IMG/VR virus record: IMGVR_UViG_3300028392_000154
Coordinates: 1 to 36,847 of that record
Length of the DNA: 36,847 nt
Direction: 5' to 3' (one strand)
Origin: a virus
This document shows positions 2,509-35,530 of the stretch, piece by piece. Every line of letters begins with the position of its first letter. Within the stretch, counting starts at the first letter, position 1. Below the pieces are notes generated by a model that saw only the letters and a list, made by a program, of their open reading frames with translations, did not search any database and was not told the DNA's origin. A program made the translations under genes and the position numbers.

Positions 2509-3281
2509 TAGGAAATTGTCACCACTGCAAAAGTATTACTAGCAGTGCCGTCAACGCCATAAAATCTGATTGAATTAAATTGTTTTGTAATTGCAAAACC
2601 ATTATTTCCGTTACTTATATTACTACTAGATAAGCCATTAATGCTAATAGAACCACCACTAGTACTTCCCCATTGGGCAAGTAGTTCAATTTCTTTTCCA
2701 GCATTAGAATTAAAATTAGTAAAAGTAATTCCTAAACTTCCACTATTAACATGTAAATGTACAATTTTGTCTGTAGCCCAGTCAATTGTTATATTATTCA
2801 CATATCCTGGAACTACACGAATATTTCCAGTTGTTGCTGCCGTATTTTGAACTGTTCCATCTGGAAATTTAATACCTCTTGCAGTAGAAAGATATCCTGT
2901 ATCTCCTGTATTTCCAATTGTAATATCTTGGGCGGAAGCGGTAGAATTAATACCAGTTGGAGTAATTCTAATATTACCCGTCTGAATTTGAACAGAACCA
3001 GATATATTAAGCACACCATTTGTCACAGTTAATCCAATATTGCTTGCAGTTACTGTATCTGTAAGATAAAGAGTTGATGCTCCAAGAAACAAACCTTTCC
3101 AACGCATTGATGCAGATCCTAAATAATAAGTATTGTCTGATGCTGGAATTAAACTTGAAGTAATTGCAAGTGGATTTATTGCTGTTGCACTAGCACCCTG
3201 TGTACCTGGAATACCCTGTGGACCTGGAGTTGTCACAAAAACTTGATTAATTGTATTGTTTACTGAAATATTATCTGTCAT
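2508..3281 (-). CDS. Collagen-like tail fibre protein
   Basis: 257 residues. A short collagen-like Gly-X-Y stretch (GPQGIPGTQG, about residues 19-28) is followed by a Ser/Thr/Asn/Gly-rich body with the motif LGSASMRWKGLFLGAS near residue 55, a pattern common in phage fibre proteins that carry repeated beta-strand units, and KFPDGTVQNTAA near 138, also typical of fibre shafts. The start overlaps the stop of the upstream gene by one base. Probably a side-tail or receptor-binding fibre in the virion; the exact role is inferred. Confidence 0.75.
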   Translation of the reverse strand: MTDNISVNNTINQVFVTTPGPQGIPGTQGASATAINPLAITSSLIPASDNTYYLGSASMRWKGLFLGASTLYLTDTVTASNIGLTVTNGVLNISGSVQIQTGNIRITPTGINSTASAQDITIGNTGDTGYLSTARGIKFPDGTVQNTAATTGNIRVVPGYVNNITIDWATDKIVHLHVNSGSLGITFTNFNSNAGKEIELLAQWGSTSGGSISINGLSSSNISNGNNGFAITKQFNSIRFYGVDGTASNTFAVVTIS

Positions 3282-9457: not shown

Positions 9458-9667
9458 ATGACAATTTATGTAGATTTTGAAGTAATGGAAAATCGTGAGT
9501 TTGTAAAGGCTAACCCAAACAACTCTCGCCTAGTAAATACAGTTTTAGATTCTTGCAAGGGTGACGCTAATTGCACCAACCTAAACGAAATCCGTTCAAA
9601 AGATTTTGGGTTTATAACTTGGTACTGCCCCGAACACTACCACCTAGCAACTTGGGCTAACGACTAA
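9458..9667 (+). CDS. Hypothetical 69-aa Cys-containing protein, family A
   Basis: Start chosen at ATG 9458, after SD GAAAGGG and downstream of the promoter; a GTG at 9362 would translate the promoter itself. MTIYVDFEVMENREF and FGFITWYCPEHYH align with MTVFVSGEVEENRIL and ADFISWLCEFC in the 11099-11335 protein, so these are paralogues. Conserved Cys/His residues suggest metal binding. Function unknown. Confidence 0.7.
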   Translation: MTIYVDFEVMENREFVKANPNNSRLVNTVLDSCKGDANCTNLNEIRSKDFGFITWYCPEHYHLATWAND

Positions 9668-9668
9668 A

Positions 9669-9692
9669 AATGTCAGACCCTTGTGCTAGATT
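9669..9692 (+). promoter_or_regulatory. Promoter with TGTCAGACCC spacer, -10 TAGATT
   Basis: AATGTCAGACCCTTGTGC then TAGATT at 9687-9692; the element begins a few bases after the preceding stop, without an intervening module. Confidence 0.65.
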
Positions 9693-9716
9693 GTAATCAT
9701 AATCAAAGGAGAAAAA

Positions 9717-9824
9717 ATGTCGGACTTAGAAATTGTTGAGAACATCACCAAAGCAAAATGTGCGGTATGTGGTGACAAACTTACCGCTTGGGAAAATTCT
9801 ATTTGTATTCTATGTGAGGACTAG
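9717..9824 (+). CDS. Small double-CxxC zinc protein (35 aa)
   Basis: KCAVCGDKLTAWENSICILC gives two CxxC pairs, a mini zinc ribbon. Close paralogue of the minus-strand 8344-8463 protein. SD AAAGGAG upstream. Confidence 0.75.
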   Translation: MSDLEIVENITKAKCAVCGDKLTAWENSICILCED

Positions 9825-27218: not shown

Positions 27219-27764
27219 TTAAATTGACAATATGTCAAAAGGTTCGCCAACATAGGGGGTATATAGGGATGACGCTTCTAGTGCCACCCTAATTCTTTTA
27301 TTTGGATCTTTCCACGCTTCTGTGGTAAATAAAGACCCTAATGCAACTGCAGCTCCACTGCCTATTGCATTATAATTTCTGCCTACCTCAAACATAGCCC
27401 AATCTTCATCAAATTCAAATAGGTGTCCACGAAGTCCGATCAAAACTTGAAAGTCCTCTTTTTCTTCCTTTTCGAGACTCAATTCCTGTGCCTGTTTGCG
27501 AAATGCTGTAACCACAACTCCATTTAAAAATGCATCTAATTGCTCAGATGTTCTTGTAGATGGCGATGGCTTTGGATAGTCAAAGACATGTTGCATCAGT
27601 TTGCCAAATCTAGCACTTCCTGCATATCCCACAATATACTCACCTTTGATGAATACTTTAGGTAAATGCATACGGCTTACTATACCAGCACCTTCATCGG
27701 TCATTGCCGAATCCCCGCCCATATAAACCTTGCCGTCTTTAGCAACTGCTGCAATACAAGTCAT
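27219..27764 (-). CDS. HslV/proteasome-like Ntn hydrolase (181 aa)
   Basis: MTCIAAVAKDGKVYMGGDSAM matches the N-terminus of HslV-type subunits in pieces: Thr2 would become the N-terminal nucleophile after Met removal, D18 in GGDSA and K36 in HLPKVF fit the catalytic Asp and Lys, and GSGAAVALG matches the family's Gly-Ser-Gly turn. Length fits the family. No HslU ATPase is nearby. It could degrade or process phage or host proteins, with a host ATPase or alone. Stop codon is followed by the GroES cluster after 60 bases. Confidence 0.88.
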   Translation of the reverse strand: MTCIAAVAKDGKVYMGGDSAMTDEGAGIVSRMHLPKVFIKGEYIVGYAGSARFGKLMQHVFDYPKPSPSTRTSEQLDAFLNGVVVTAFRKQAQELSLEKEEKEDFQVLIGLRGHLFEFDEDWAMFEVGRNYNAIGSGAAVALGSLFTTEAWKDPNKRIRVALEASSLYTPYVGEPFDILSI

Positions 27765-32816: not shown

Positions 32817-33117
32817 CGTCTCTTGTAAAACTTTCTATTTCTCCAGTTTTAATATATTTCTTGCCCTTTTCACTAACAAAAAAAGTTACATCTAAATTTT
32901 CATTATAAGAAATATCAATCAAGCCCATTTCATATAAATGCATTAAATCATTATCAATTTCTTCTTTAATTACTTCCGCAGCCTCTGGTAAAACTTCTTC
33001 CAATATATCTAAATTAAATCTATATAAAGGTTCTCCATCATCATTTACGCCATATGGCTCCATTGCTCCTTTTTCCAATAAGTATTGAAAAAAATCATCG
33101 TCATTTTCAAAATGCAT
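32809..33117 (-). CDS. Hypothetical 102-aa winged-helix-like protein
   Basis: FQYLLEKGAMEPYGVNDDGEPLYRFN and LYEMGLIDISYNENLDVTFFVSEKGKKYI in pieces resemble a phage family with a helix followed by a winged strand pair (L-I-D-I-S...F-x-V-(S/T)-E-K-G). Very acidic, so not an obvious DNA binder. ATG overlaps the preceding stop. Confidence 0.62.
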   Translation of the reverse strand: MHFENDDDFFQYLLEKGAMEPYGVNDDGEPLYRFNLDILEEVLPEAAEVIKEEIDNDLMHLYEMGLIDISYNENLDVTFFVSEKGKKYIKTGEIESFTRDDG

Positions 33118-33395
33118 TACTTGTTGTCCAACTTTTCAATTAAATTGACAAACTGAACAAAAACTTCTGCAAATGTTGCTTGTTCAGCAGCAATATCTGC
33201 AATATGGATTGCTTTAGTTTTTCCAAAACGGCTGTCAAGGTGGTTTAAAAACGCCTCTGCATATGCTTTTACAAACTGTTCTGGGGTTGTATATTTATGT
33301 GCTTTACTCTGGATTTCTCCATTAACGGTTGTTGTTTTTGTTTTATTGGCATGCTCATGCCCAAGTTTTGACCATTTATTTTCACTGTAACTCAT
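33117..33395 (-). CDS. Hypothetical 92-aa helical protein
   Basis: A basic, polar start (HEHANKTKTTTVNGE), then two helices (EQFVKAYAEAFLNHL, FAEVFVQFVNLIEKL). First gene after the tmRNA. SD AAAGGAT. Function unknown. Confidence 0.62.
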   Translation of the reverse strand: MSYSENKWSKLGHEHANKTKTTTVNGEIQSKAHKYTTPEQFVKAYAEAFLNHLDSRFGKTKAIHIADIAAEQATFAEVFVQFVNLIEKLDNK

Positions 33396-33414: not shown

Positions 33415-33645
33415 TGGAGATGGGCGGATTTGCACCGCCGTTCTATATGTTTTCTATTATACAGTATTGCAGTAATATTGTCTAGATTTTTTATTTATTT
33501 TTTATACGACTTTCTGTTCCCATGCAGTCGTCACACGGCTTTAGTTTATGCAGCTAAAGCGAGGGTATTTTGAGATACGCCGTTTATTTTTAGTTTGTTT
33601 TACTTCTGTATAAAAGTCTGCACATAGTCGAAACTAGGCATCCCC
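33415..33645 (-). ncRNA. ssrA: tmRNA (phage-encoded ssrA)
   Basis: On the minus strand the 5' end GGGGATG pairs with the 3' end CATCTCC as a seven-bp acceptor (one G-U), followed by discriminator A. GTTTCGACT near the 5' end and T arm GGCGG-TGCAAAT-CCGCC are as in tmRNA. The tag frame, set by AATAAAC before GGC, reads GVSQNTLALAA then stop, with the typical ALAA end; CTTTAG/CTAAAG forms the helix around the tag end, and ACGACT/AGTCGT a further helix. CCA is not encoded (A-CAT). At 231 nt it is shorter than typical bacterial tmRNAs. It rescues stalled ribosomes and tags proteins for proteolysis. Confidence 0.9.
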
Positions 33646-33786
33646 TTATTTAATTTTACCACACTTAGTGCATAAACTTTCTACATACTCATGCTTGTGA
33701 TTAGCTTTTTTGGGCTTAGGTTTAGGCTCAACCTTTTTTCTTCTGCCCCGAATTACTTCTTCTTCTGGATCAATCCAGTTTTTCAT
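33646..33786 (-). CDS. 46-aa basic zinc-finger-like peptide
   Basis: VIRGRRKKVEPKPKPKKANHKHEYVE is basic and Pro-rich, then CTKCGKIK gives a CxxC knuckle with upstream His residues. Its stop touches the tmRNA 5' end, so the tmRNA is probably processed from a longer transcript. Overlaps the glycosyltransferase by four bases. Confidence 0.62.
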   Translation of the reverse strand: MKNWIDPEEEVIRGRRKKVEPKPKPKKANHKHEYVESLCTKCGKIK

Positions 33787-34910
33787 AACCCTTTTGCTTT
33801 CCTATAAATTTCAATTATGGTGTCTGACCAATCATGTACCTTATCAGATAAATTATACTTATCCATCACTACTTCATAACCCTTTTGAGCATCTGCTTTT
33901 CTATTTGCTGGGTCTATATAATATTCCATATGTTTAATCCAGTCTGCAGGTTTTTCTGCAATTTTCCCCGCACCTTCATTTGCAAGCAATTTATACTCAT
34001 GTGTTCCAGCTGCAACAAAAGGAATTCCAGTCATTGCATATTCCACACCTTTAAGACTTGATTTTGCTTCATTGAATGGAATCATATCAAGCGGTACAAG
34101 CCCAATGTCCATAGGCATCAGTATGTTGCCGTAATTCCAAACACTTGTTCCTGTAACTTCAATTAATCTTTCAGGATCCATTTTGGTCAATTCGGCAAAT
34201 TGTTTTGGCTTGTCCATAAGCATTCCAGCATGATAAAACATAAGGTCATGCTTATCTAAAAATGGTCCTAAAATTCCCTGTAATTTTTCAACATCATGCT
34301 GTCTCCATAACATAATACCTACCCAACCAATTGTTGGTTTCCAGCCAGCGTTGTCAAAACGCTTCATAAATAATTTTGGATCAACCGAGTTTCTAACAAT
34401 ATAATTATTTTTATTTAACTTACCATAGTTATTTGCAAGAAATTCTGTACTATGAATTAGAGCATCTGCAGAACTATACGATGTATGCATATGGTCTCTA
34501 TTCCATGTAACATCTTTATTTGGGTGTGTAGTATGAAAAGCAATATTGGTTTGTGGTAATCCCATAAACCAATCATCAACATCAATAATAACCACTTGAC
34601 CCAAAGCTCTTGCTTGTTCAATCATTTCTTTTGCTTTATGCCACATAAATAACTTTATTACAACAACATCTAGTTTGTCAAAGCATTGGTCTGGATTTTT
34701 AATTGGTGATCTATCTGTATAACTTAGTCTATATTGGGTGGGTGCAACTACAAAGCCTTCTCCATCTTTCCACCCAATTTCACCACATACTGATTCGTGA
34801 CCTATTGTATTTAAATAAGCAGATACAGATGCACATCTAATCCAAGTGCATCCACCTGGAGATCCTATGCCAAAATCTGCCCAGTCTGAACTAATAAAAC
34901 CTATTCTCAT
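33783..34910 (-). CDS. GT4-like glycosyltransferase (375 aa)
   Basis: Start at ATG 34910, overlapping the preceding TGA (ATGA). MRIGFISSDWADFGIGSPGG then VVIKLFMWHKAKEMI and VVIIDVDDWF in the N-terminal Rossmann half; KPTIGWVGIMLWRQHDVEKL begins the second, and SSLKGVEYAMTGIPFVA is the C-terminal donor-binding region. Domain order fits GT-B transferases seen in phages and surface-polysaccharide loci. Last enzyme of the sugar cassette. Confidence 0.82.
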   Translation of the reverse strand: MRIGFISSDWADFGIGSPGGCTWIRCASVSAYLNTIGHESVCGEIGWKDGEGFVVAPTQYRLSYTDRSPIKNPDQCFDKLDVVVIKLFMWHKAKEMIEQARALGQVVIIDVDDWFMGLPQTNIAFHTTHPNKDVTWNRDHMHTSYSSADALIHSTEFLANNYGKLNKNNYIVRNSVDPKLFMKRFDNAGWKPTIGWVGIMLWRQHDVEKLQGILGPFLDKHDLMFYHAGMLMDKPKQFAELTKMDPERLIEVTGTSVWNYGNILMPMDIGLVPLDMIPFNEAKSSLKGVEYAMTGIPFVAAGTHEYKLLANEGAGKIAEKPADWIKHMEYYIDPANRKADAQKGYEVVMDKYNLSDKVHDWSDTIIEIYRKAKGL

Positions 34911-35530
34911 TTTAAAAATCCATAATCTACATTTGCTTCTTCTATGTCTGACCAACTTGGTCTTTGCCAAGCTAAAGATGGGGTAAAAGCAAAACTGTTA
35001 AATCTATGCAGATTTTTTGAATATGTAACATCTGTTGGTTCGTGAATTGTTTGCACATCTAAAAGACTTTGATAGACGCTGCTGTTAATAGCAATGGCAT
35101 GCATGGCTAAAGTGTTGTTTGCAATAGATAAGTTTTCGGTAATTTTAGATGGCACTCCCCATGCATGATTTCCACCCAGATAAAGAATATCCCAATTTTC
35201 TGGCAAATCTTTAATAGCAATATTAAATTTTTCGACAAAGTTATCAGTAAATTCTACATCATCCTCAAACATTAAAAAGTTTTTATAACCTTTTTCAATT
35301 GCATCTTTTAATAAATTTATATGAGAAAGAGCAAATCCAGCATTTCCCTTTCTAATAGGAAAAGAATATTCACTGGTTGGAATAGTATCTCCATCAACCG
35401 CAGAAAATCTTTCAACATTTTCAATACCATTTTTACTAAATTCATCTAGGCATTCCTGCCACCTGTCAGTTCTTTTATCCAAATTTACACAATAAATATG
35501 ATCAAAAAAACTATTTAAAGTTTCATTCAT
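34907..35530 (-). CDS. GT25-family glycosyltransferase (207 aa)
   Basis: IYCVNLDKRTDRW at residues 12-24, then GNAGFALSHINLLKDAIEKG and FLMFEDDVEF (EDD at 89-91, the metal/donor site) are hallmarks of family 25 (LPS galactosyltransferase type). WDILYLGGNHAW follows. It overlaps both neighbours, so is part of one operon with the sugar-activating genes. Acceptor unknown. Confidence 0.9.
   Translation of the reverse strand: MNETLNSFFDHIYCVNLDKRTDRWQECLDEFSKNGIENVERFSAVDGDTIPTSEYSFPIRKGNAGFALSHINLLKDAIEKGYKNFLMFEDDVEFTDNFVEKFNIAIKDLPENWDILYLGGNHAWGVPSKITENLSIANNTLAMHAIAINSSVYQSLLDVQTIHEPTDVTYSKNLHRFNSFAFTPSLAWQRPSWSDIEEANVDYGFLK

Follow-up and report, generated by a model that had tools for sequence, protein, structure and literature searches.

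The window, meaning the whole 36,847-nucleotide stretch of phage DNA that was analyzed, encodes a tmRNA (ssrA) gene on the minus strand at 33415..33645. The mature RNA is 231 nt, CCA tail not counted, and we number it 1-231 from 33645 down to 33415 (reading GGGGATG...CATCTCCA). Its 7-bp acceptor stem is formed by GGGGATG (33639..33645, minus) and CATCTCC, the latter followed by the discriminator A (33415..33422, minus), and the T arm, GGCGG-TGCAAAT-CCGCC, is at 33423..33439 (minus). The D-loop-like segment AGTTTCGA (33628..33638, minus) occurs without a D stem. CAT follows the discriminator A, so CCA is not encoded; the tRNA-Asp of the window, unlike the tmRNA, has an encoded CCA. A sequence-only reading made before this analysis had given these coordinates, the 231 nt length and the tag GVSQNTLALAA, all correctly. 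The acceptor ends, T arm and ALAA-stop frame that it claimed are all found on the minus strand, and it was right about the absence of an encoded CCA and about a coding gene abutting the 5′ end.

That gene is a 46 amino acid ORF (MKNWIDP...CTKCGKIK; 33646..33786, minus), and its TAA abuts base 1 of the tmRNA with 0 nt between them. The ORF has a CxxC end (CTKCGKIK) and a third-position bias, which indicates that it is probably a real gene. Its start is overlapped by the stop of an upstream glycosyltransferase-like gene (33783..34970, minus). Directly downstream of the tmRNA is a gene for a 92 amino acid protein (33117..33395, minus), whose ribosome-binding site starts a few bases past the tmRNA 3′ end. 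A cut at the stop of the 46 amino acid ORF would leave an mRNA ending exactly at a stop codon, a possible rescue substrate. Elsewhere, the window encodes an HslV-family peptidase-like protein (phrog_1040; 27219-27764, minus), and the gene is also present on a 100-kb relative.

Relatives of the RNA and their shared structure

The RNA of the window is carried by 19 further loci on viral contigs, giving a family of 20 with the window included. L002, L003 (on the 100-kb contig) and L004 were reached via the neighboring glycosyltransferase and one further gene, and all have the RNA. Viral contigs were scanned with a pattern of the RNA ends (acceptor, D-loop and 3′ acceptor) in size classes of 212-242 nt, 243-273 nt and <212 nt. 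The first class contained two family members (L015 and L027), an unrelated 223-nt tmRNA (L028) and a chance match (L026); the second contained 15 tmRNAs, namely 14 family members of 246-253 nt and L043; the third contained a single odd case, L029. We separate the family into six members without the pseudoknot PK1 (the window, L002, L003, L004, L015 and L027; 230-239 nt) and 14 PK1-bearing sisters (L031, L033-L039, L041, L042 and L044-L047; 246-253 nt). In the L031/L037 subgroup of sisters, the gene downstream of the tmRNA is related to the one in the window.

Other searches gave less. When the tmRNA of the window and that of sister L034 were compared with isolated phages by BLASTN, no full-length relative came up; only Sushi23 and a near relative matched, weakly and at the T-arm end. 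A conserved-core pattern was discarded as a family finder (15 stretches, only four of them family members). In GTDB genomes, the same end pattern at 212-242 nt, which is a narrow pattern, gave 69 stretches, and in no case were acceptor, T arm and tag present together.

The family shares a structure of 46 pairs, comprising the acceptor stem, T arm, helix 2 in two parts, a resume-codon hairpin, helix 5 and a hairpin in the place of PK2. Over the 20 members, 96.1% of cells are paired and 13 pairs have compensatory (both-side) changes; none of 500 shuffles and no slid control did as well. The acceptor stem is 100% paired, with G3:U70 as its third pair in 20/20 members, and the T arm is also 100% paired, with compensatory changes in three of its five pairs. 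The outer part of helix 2 (5′ strand 33621..33627, minus, pairing with 33443-33449) has compensatory changes in 4/7 pairs, and the 5′ strand of the inner part (33606..33616, minus) pairs with 33454-33464; the 3′ strands together span 33443..33464 (minus). GTTTCGA of the D-loop segment is invariant across the family. The sole departure of the T loop, TGCAAAT, from the canonical form is G for U55. The sequence-only reading had rightly called this loop unusual; as a defect it fails, since the G is common to 20/20 members and is therefore a family trait.

Taken from the window only, the evidence is weak and the programs are equivocal. ARAGORN and Infernal had been proposed as a check in the sequence-only reading: ARAGORN does not call the tmRNA at 33415-33645 of the window, and the Rfam model RF00023 matches the window RNA over its full length at 36.4 bits, under the gathering score of 47. 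Short genomic matches of 75-95 nt, probably tRNAs, reach 38 bits with this model, so the score is not discriminating. The same reading held that a covariance score below threshold would count as refutation. The score does fall below, and the test is invalid here because an RNA that has lost PK1 to PK4 scores lower with the model and because homologues of the same structure fall on both sides of the cut-off (43.0-58.9 bits for the PK1-less relatives; two PK1-bearing sisters reach 67-76 bits). ARAGORN names a tmRNA in L002, L003 and L027, the first two with the tag of the window, and also calls PK1-bearing sisters tmRNA. RNAfold gives z = -3.4 for the window RNA, with 1/200 shuffles folding equally well, and the end pattern is found at one site in the window and in 0 of 100 shuffles. 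The tRNA-like matches would suit a reading of the locus as a chance resemblance, or as a tRNA misread as a tmRNA. Chance would yield the end pattern 0 times, homologues that share the tag are called by ARAGORN, and the pairs covary, so the comparative data already refute this reading and we give it practically no credence. It is this sequence comparison with relatives that settles the identity of the gene as a tmRNA.

Conservation of the tag reading frame

The tag frame (33546..33581, minus) begins with the resume codon GGC and reads GGC GTA TCT CAA AAT ACC CTC GCT TTA GCT GCA TAA, for GVSQNTLALAA-stop. The tag amino acids are identical in 4/6 PK1-less loci, and L004 has three synonymous changes and no amino acid changes (for example, GCT TTA GCT GCA to GCT CTG GCT GCT). 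Across the family, the amino acids are conserved while codons change. Variation is limited to a few positions, all before ALAA, and ALAA-stop is present in 20/20 members, as is AUAA 2 nt upstream of the resume codon, itself GGC throughout. Mutation of the AUAA/AUAG tetramer before the resume codon shifts the frame (PMC4236655). The end of the tag and its stop codon lie in the helix 5 hairpin (33538..33560, minus).

The tag bears on whether the RNA could be a decoy, as proposed for mycobacteriophage DS6A, in which a charged or SmpB-binding tmRNA-like RNA would block the host tmRNA and the tag would be a remnant. A phage RNA of this sort has been described, and tmRNA is inhibited by a similar molecule (PMC4131195, PMC11915505); the RNA of the window is, like that of DS6A, a reduced phage tmRNA, and strongly so. 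However, a decoy would need neither tag frame, AUAA, helix 5 nor stop codon, all kept in 20/20 members, nor synonymous changes in the tag. The DS6A RNA consists of the tRNA-like domain only, with no tag, whereas that of the window has a conserved tag and so is not of the DS6A type. We consider a decoy quite improbable.

Loss of PK1 and the other pseudoknot positions

Before the tag, the PK1-bearing sisters have CAGC/GCTG (helix 2d), ACAAG/CTTGT (helix 3) and, read by eye, a helix 4 of 3-4 pairs (AGTT/AACT). Helix 2d and helix 3 of PK1 are both present in 14/14 sisters and in 0/6 PK1-less loci. The missing block is a single gap of 16-17 alignment columns, and the remainder, AAGTAAAACAAACTAAAAATAAAC, has no fold. 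In the window, the site of the sisters' helix 2d and PK1 is an A-rich single-stranded leader (33582..33605, minus; 71% A, no fold), which closes with AUAA and 2 nt before the resume codon. The sisters resemble the window in the rest of the structure, the T loop (TGCAA[AT]T) and the resume codon, and differ in having helix 2d, a short PK1 and tags of the form G[AKT]TQ[NT]A[LF]ALAA. Comparison of the two sets bears out an earlier suspicion that pseudoknots had been lost: as aligned, the tmRNA is one trimmed by clean loss of a folded element before the tag message.

A tree that excludes the PK1 columns and L028 places the PK1-less six on one side of a branch with support of 84/95, which is not strong; with L028 included, the PK1-less group is unresolved. 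On the former tree, the change in the PK1 block maps as one event. Since the outgroups Sushi23 (281 nt) and L043 (260 nt) still have the P3 hairpin, loss explains the difference more simply than gain. Sushi23, a Streptomyces phage of the Stanwilliamsviridae, has a one-piece tmRNA with the tag ANSKFAFALAA and is like the window in its acceptor ends, helix 5, GGAACAGAA hairpin loop and AUAA-NN before the resume codon. It is unlike the window in the kept P3 hairpin of PK1 (its sequence fits P4 too), a possible PK2 (CCUUG/CAAGG, by eye), a canonical T loop (TTCGAAT) and an RF00023 score of 89 bits.

PK1 may have been lost by drift, leaving a non-working gene, and the sub-threshold RF00023 score and the failure of ARAGORN to find the gene would fit such decay. 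Against this, nine pairs have compensatory changes within the PK1-less six, the tag and motifs are intact, and the exact abutment with the upstream stop is kept in 6/6 PK1-less loci at 0 nt. An ORF stop at 0 nt from base 1 was seen in no sister examined. Decay therefore seems very unlikely.

Another reading is that PK1 was replaced, for example by the 4-pair resume-codon hairpin (RNA 65-68 with 79-82), so that local shielding remains. Pairing in this hairpin stands at 93%, and one of its pairs has changed on both sides (G-C to A-U); a helix at the resume-codon place of E. coli tmRNA has been predicted, by energy only (PMC1168896). However, the hairpin occurs in PK1-bearing sisters too, which argues against replacement. 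The five closest PK1-less rows break one of its pairs and are able to fold a different hairpin. We regard replacement as unlikely.

At the position of PK2, the window has a hairpin with the conserved GGAACAGAA in its loop (33506..33531, minus); no downstream partner was found. An A/T-rich linker (33465..33505, minus) occupies the place of PK3 and PK4, neither of which was found, and, the PK2-place hairpin aside, there is no covariation-supported helix of at least 4 pairs elsewhere. Two candidate interactions were set aside: pairing of the GGAACAGAA loop with downstream sequence (CUAG/CUAG-type pairings lack covariation and are absent in the window), and complementarity of the D-loop with the hairpin loop (GTTTC/GGAAC), which is invariant and hence proves nothing. 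From these comparisons, we describe the RNA as a one-piece phage tmRNA that is naturally PK1-less and probably pseudoknot-free.

Reduced tmRNAs are known elsewhere. The Oenococcus oeni tmRNA is, like that of the window, a natural reduction, with no helix 4 and hence no PK1 (PMC1168896); it is reported to lack helix 4 only, whereas the phage RNA is without helices 2d, 3 and 4 and PK2 to PK4. The tmRNA of Synechococcus PCC7009, a short cyanobacterial form, is 250 nt (PMC1168896). Known tmRNAs range from 230-400 nt (PMC3968760), which puts 231 nt at the lower end. The L028 locus (IMGVR_UViG_3300043446_002523, 9502-9724) encodes a phage tmRNA without PK1, with the tag NNNINNYALAA and otherwise different from the family; RF00023 gives it 67.4 bits, and ARAGORN misses it. 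Its lack of PK1 is probably a second, independent loss.

The phage, its host and the proposed working of the RNA

By its shared genes the contig is probably related to actinobacteriophages, which agrees with the earlier claim of a phage-encoded tmRNA. The ribonucleotide reductase of the window is 67% identical to the enzyme of Streptomyces phages. A second gene has its nearest counterparts in Streptomyces phages of ~130 kb, and the identity of the glycosyltransferase to that of Streptomyces phages is 39%. The 100-kb relative (L003) carries terminase, portal, head and minor tail genes, and by its gene content the phage is tailed. Judged gene by gene, the phage is most likely related to the Streptomyces phages of the Stanwilliamsviridae; this uncultured phage probably infects an actinobacterium. 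Neither the window nor three relatives yielded an SmpB gene, so we assume host SmpB.

We consider it very likely that the gene encodes a one-piece tmRNA of a tailed phage that lost PK1 and helix 2d in one clean deletion, has no detectable pseudoknots, and works with host factors. Transcription of the RNA would be part of a closely spaced phage operon or would start from an extended -10 box immediately upstream. A TGnTAAAAT box (33653-33661, minus) lies inside the coding end of the 46 amino acid ORF, 7 nt before G1, and this position reads TATAAT in several sisters, so transcription from base 1 is possible. The host would add CCA to the 3′ end, G3:U70 would direct charging with alanine, and host SmpB and EF-Tu would bring the tmRNA into stalled ribosomes. 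In such trans-translation, the ribosome would resume at GGC after AUAA-NN and append (A)GVSQNTLALAA, and the released chain would be open to destruction by host ClpXP-type proteases. More tentatively, and with some doubt, we suggest that this is a naturally functional tmRNA with PK1 to PK4 all gone, its 5′ end set right after the stop of a conserved small gene, perhaps with transcription beginning at base 1 under the extended -10 box inside that gene.

Counting against a working tmRNA are the RF00023 score, the need to borrow SmpB, the G at U55, and the result of Nameki 2000, as reported in PMC3968760, that PK1 is the only pseudoknot required for tagging in E. coli. The same source summarizes PK2-PK4 as dispensable. 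According to the account of Wower 2009 in PMC4236655, E. coli tmRNA with PK1 swapped for a single strand tags efficiently in vivo; as described there, that RNA resembles the window's in lacking PK1 and in reaching the tag through a single strand. It is an artificial RNA, and that of the window is natural. On our reading, the engineered RNA keeps PK2 to PK4, which the phage RNA does not have. Pseudoknots are typical of one-piece tmRNAs, but given these reports we took neither PK1 nor PK2 to PK4 as defining the class; the RF00023 gathering score, being a software threshold, was not taken so either.

Phage tmRNAs are already known, including those of Bxz1, Wildcat and phage G (PMC4131195), and tmRNAs were found in 402/18,146 phage genomes (PMC9004378). 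A working engineered PK1-less tmRNA is known too; what is new is this natural PK1-less variant, the counterpart of a result previously shown with engineered E. coli tmRNA. The need for PK1 has been argued from such engineered RNAs, as required in one study and replaceable in later ones. In this phage family, the RNAs that have PK1 and those that lack it are set apart by a single clean block and share the tRNA-like part and the tag end, so the role of PK1 could be tested on molecules kept by selection. An RNA of ~230 nt also offers a compact start for structural work. Such genes can escape ARAGORN and RF00023, and counts of phage tmRNAs are therefore probably too low.

Comparing the tag with those of candidate hosts, as had been proposed, gave 0 matches to GVSQNTLALAA in 397 actinobacterial genomes. 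The single hit of a tmRNA search in these genomes was weak, 66 nt long and in an intron-bearing tmRNA. At L126 (1026-1620, minus), the T loop of an actinobacterial tmRNA is seemingly interrupted by a group I intron (RF00028, 47.3 bits). The L029 locus (IMGVR_UViG_3300035698_024657, 130 kb; 2900-3110) has a tmRNA of ~74 nt that consists of the tRNA-like domain only, with CCA encoded, and resembles the DS6A form. Ahead of it lies another tmRNA-like 5′ end, and after it comes an ORF whose GLFDGEG motif is LAGLIDADG-like.
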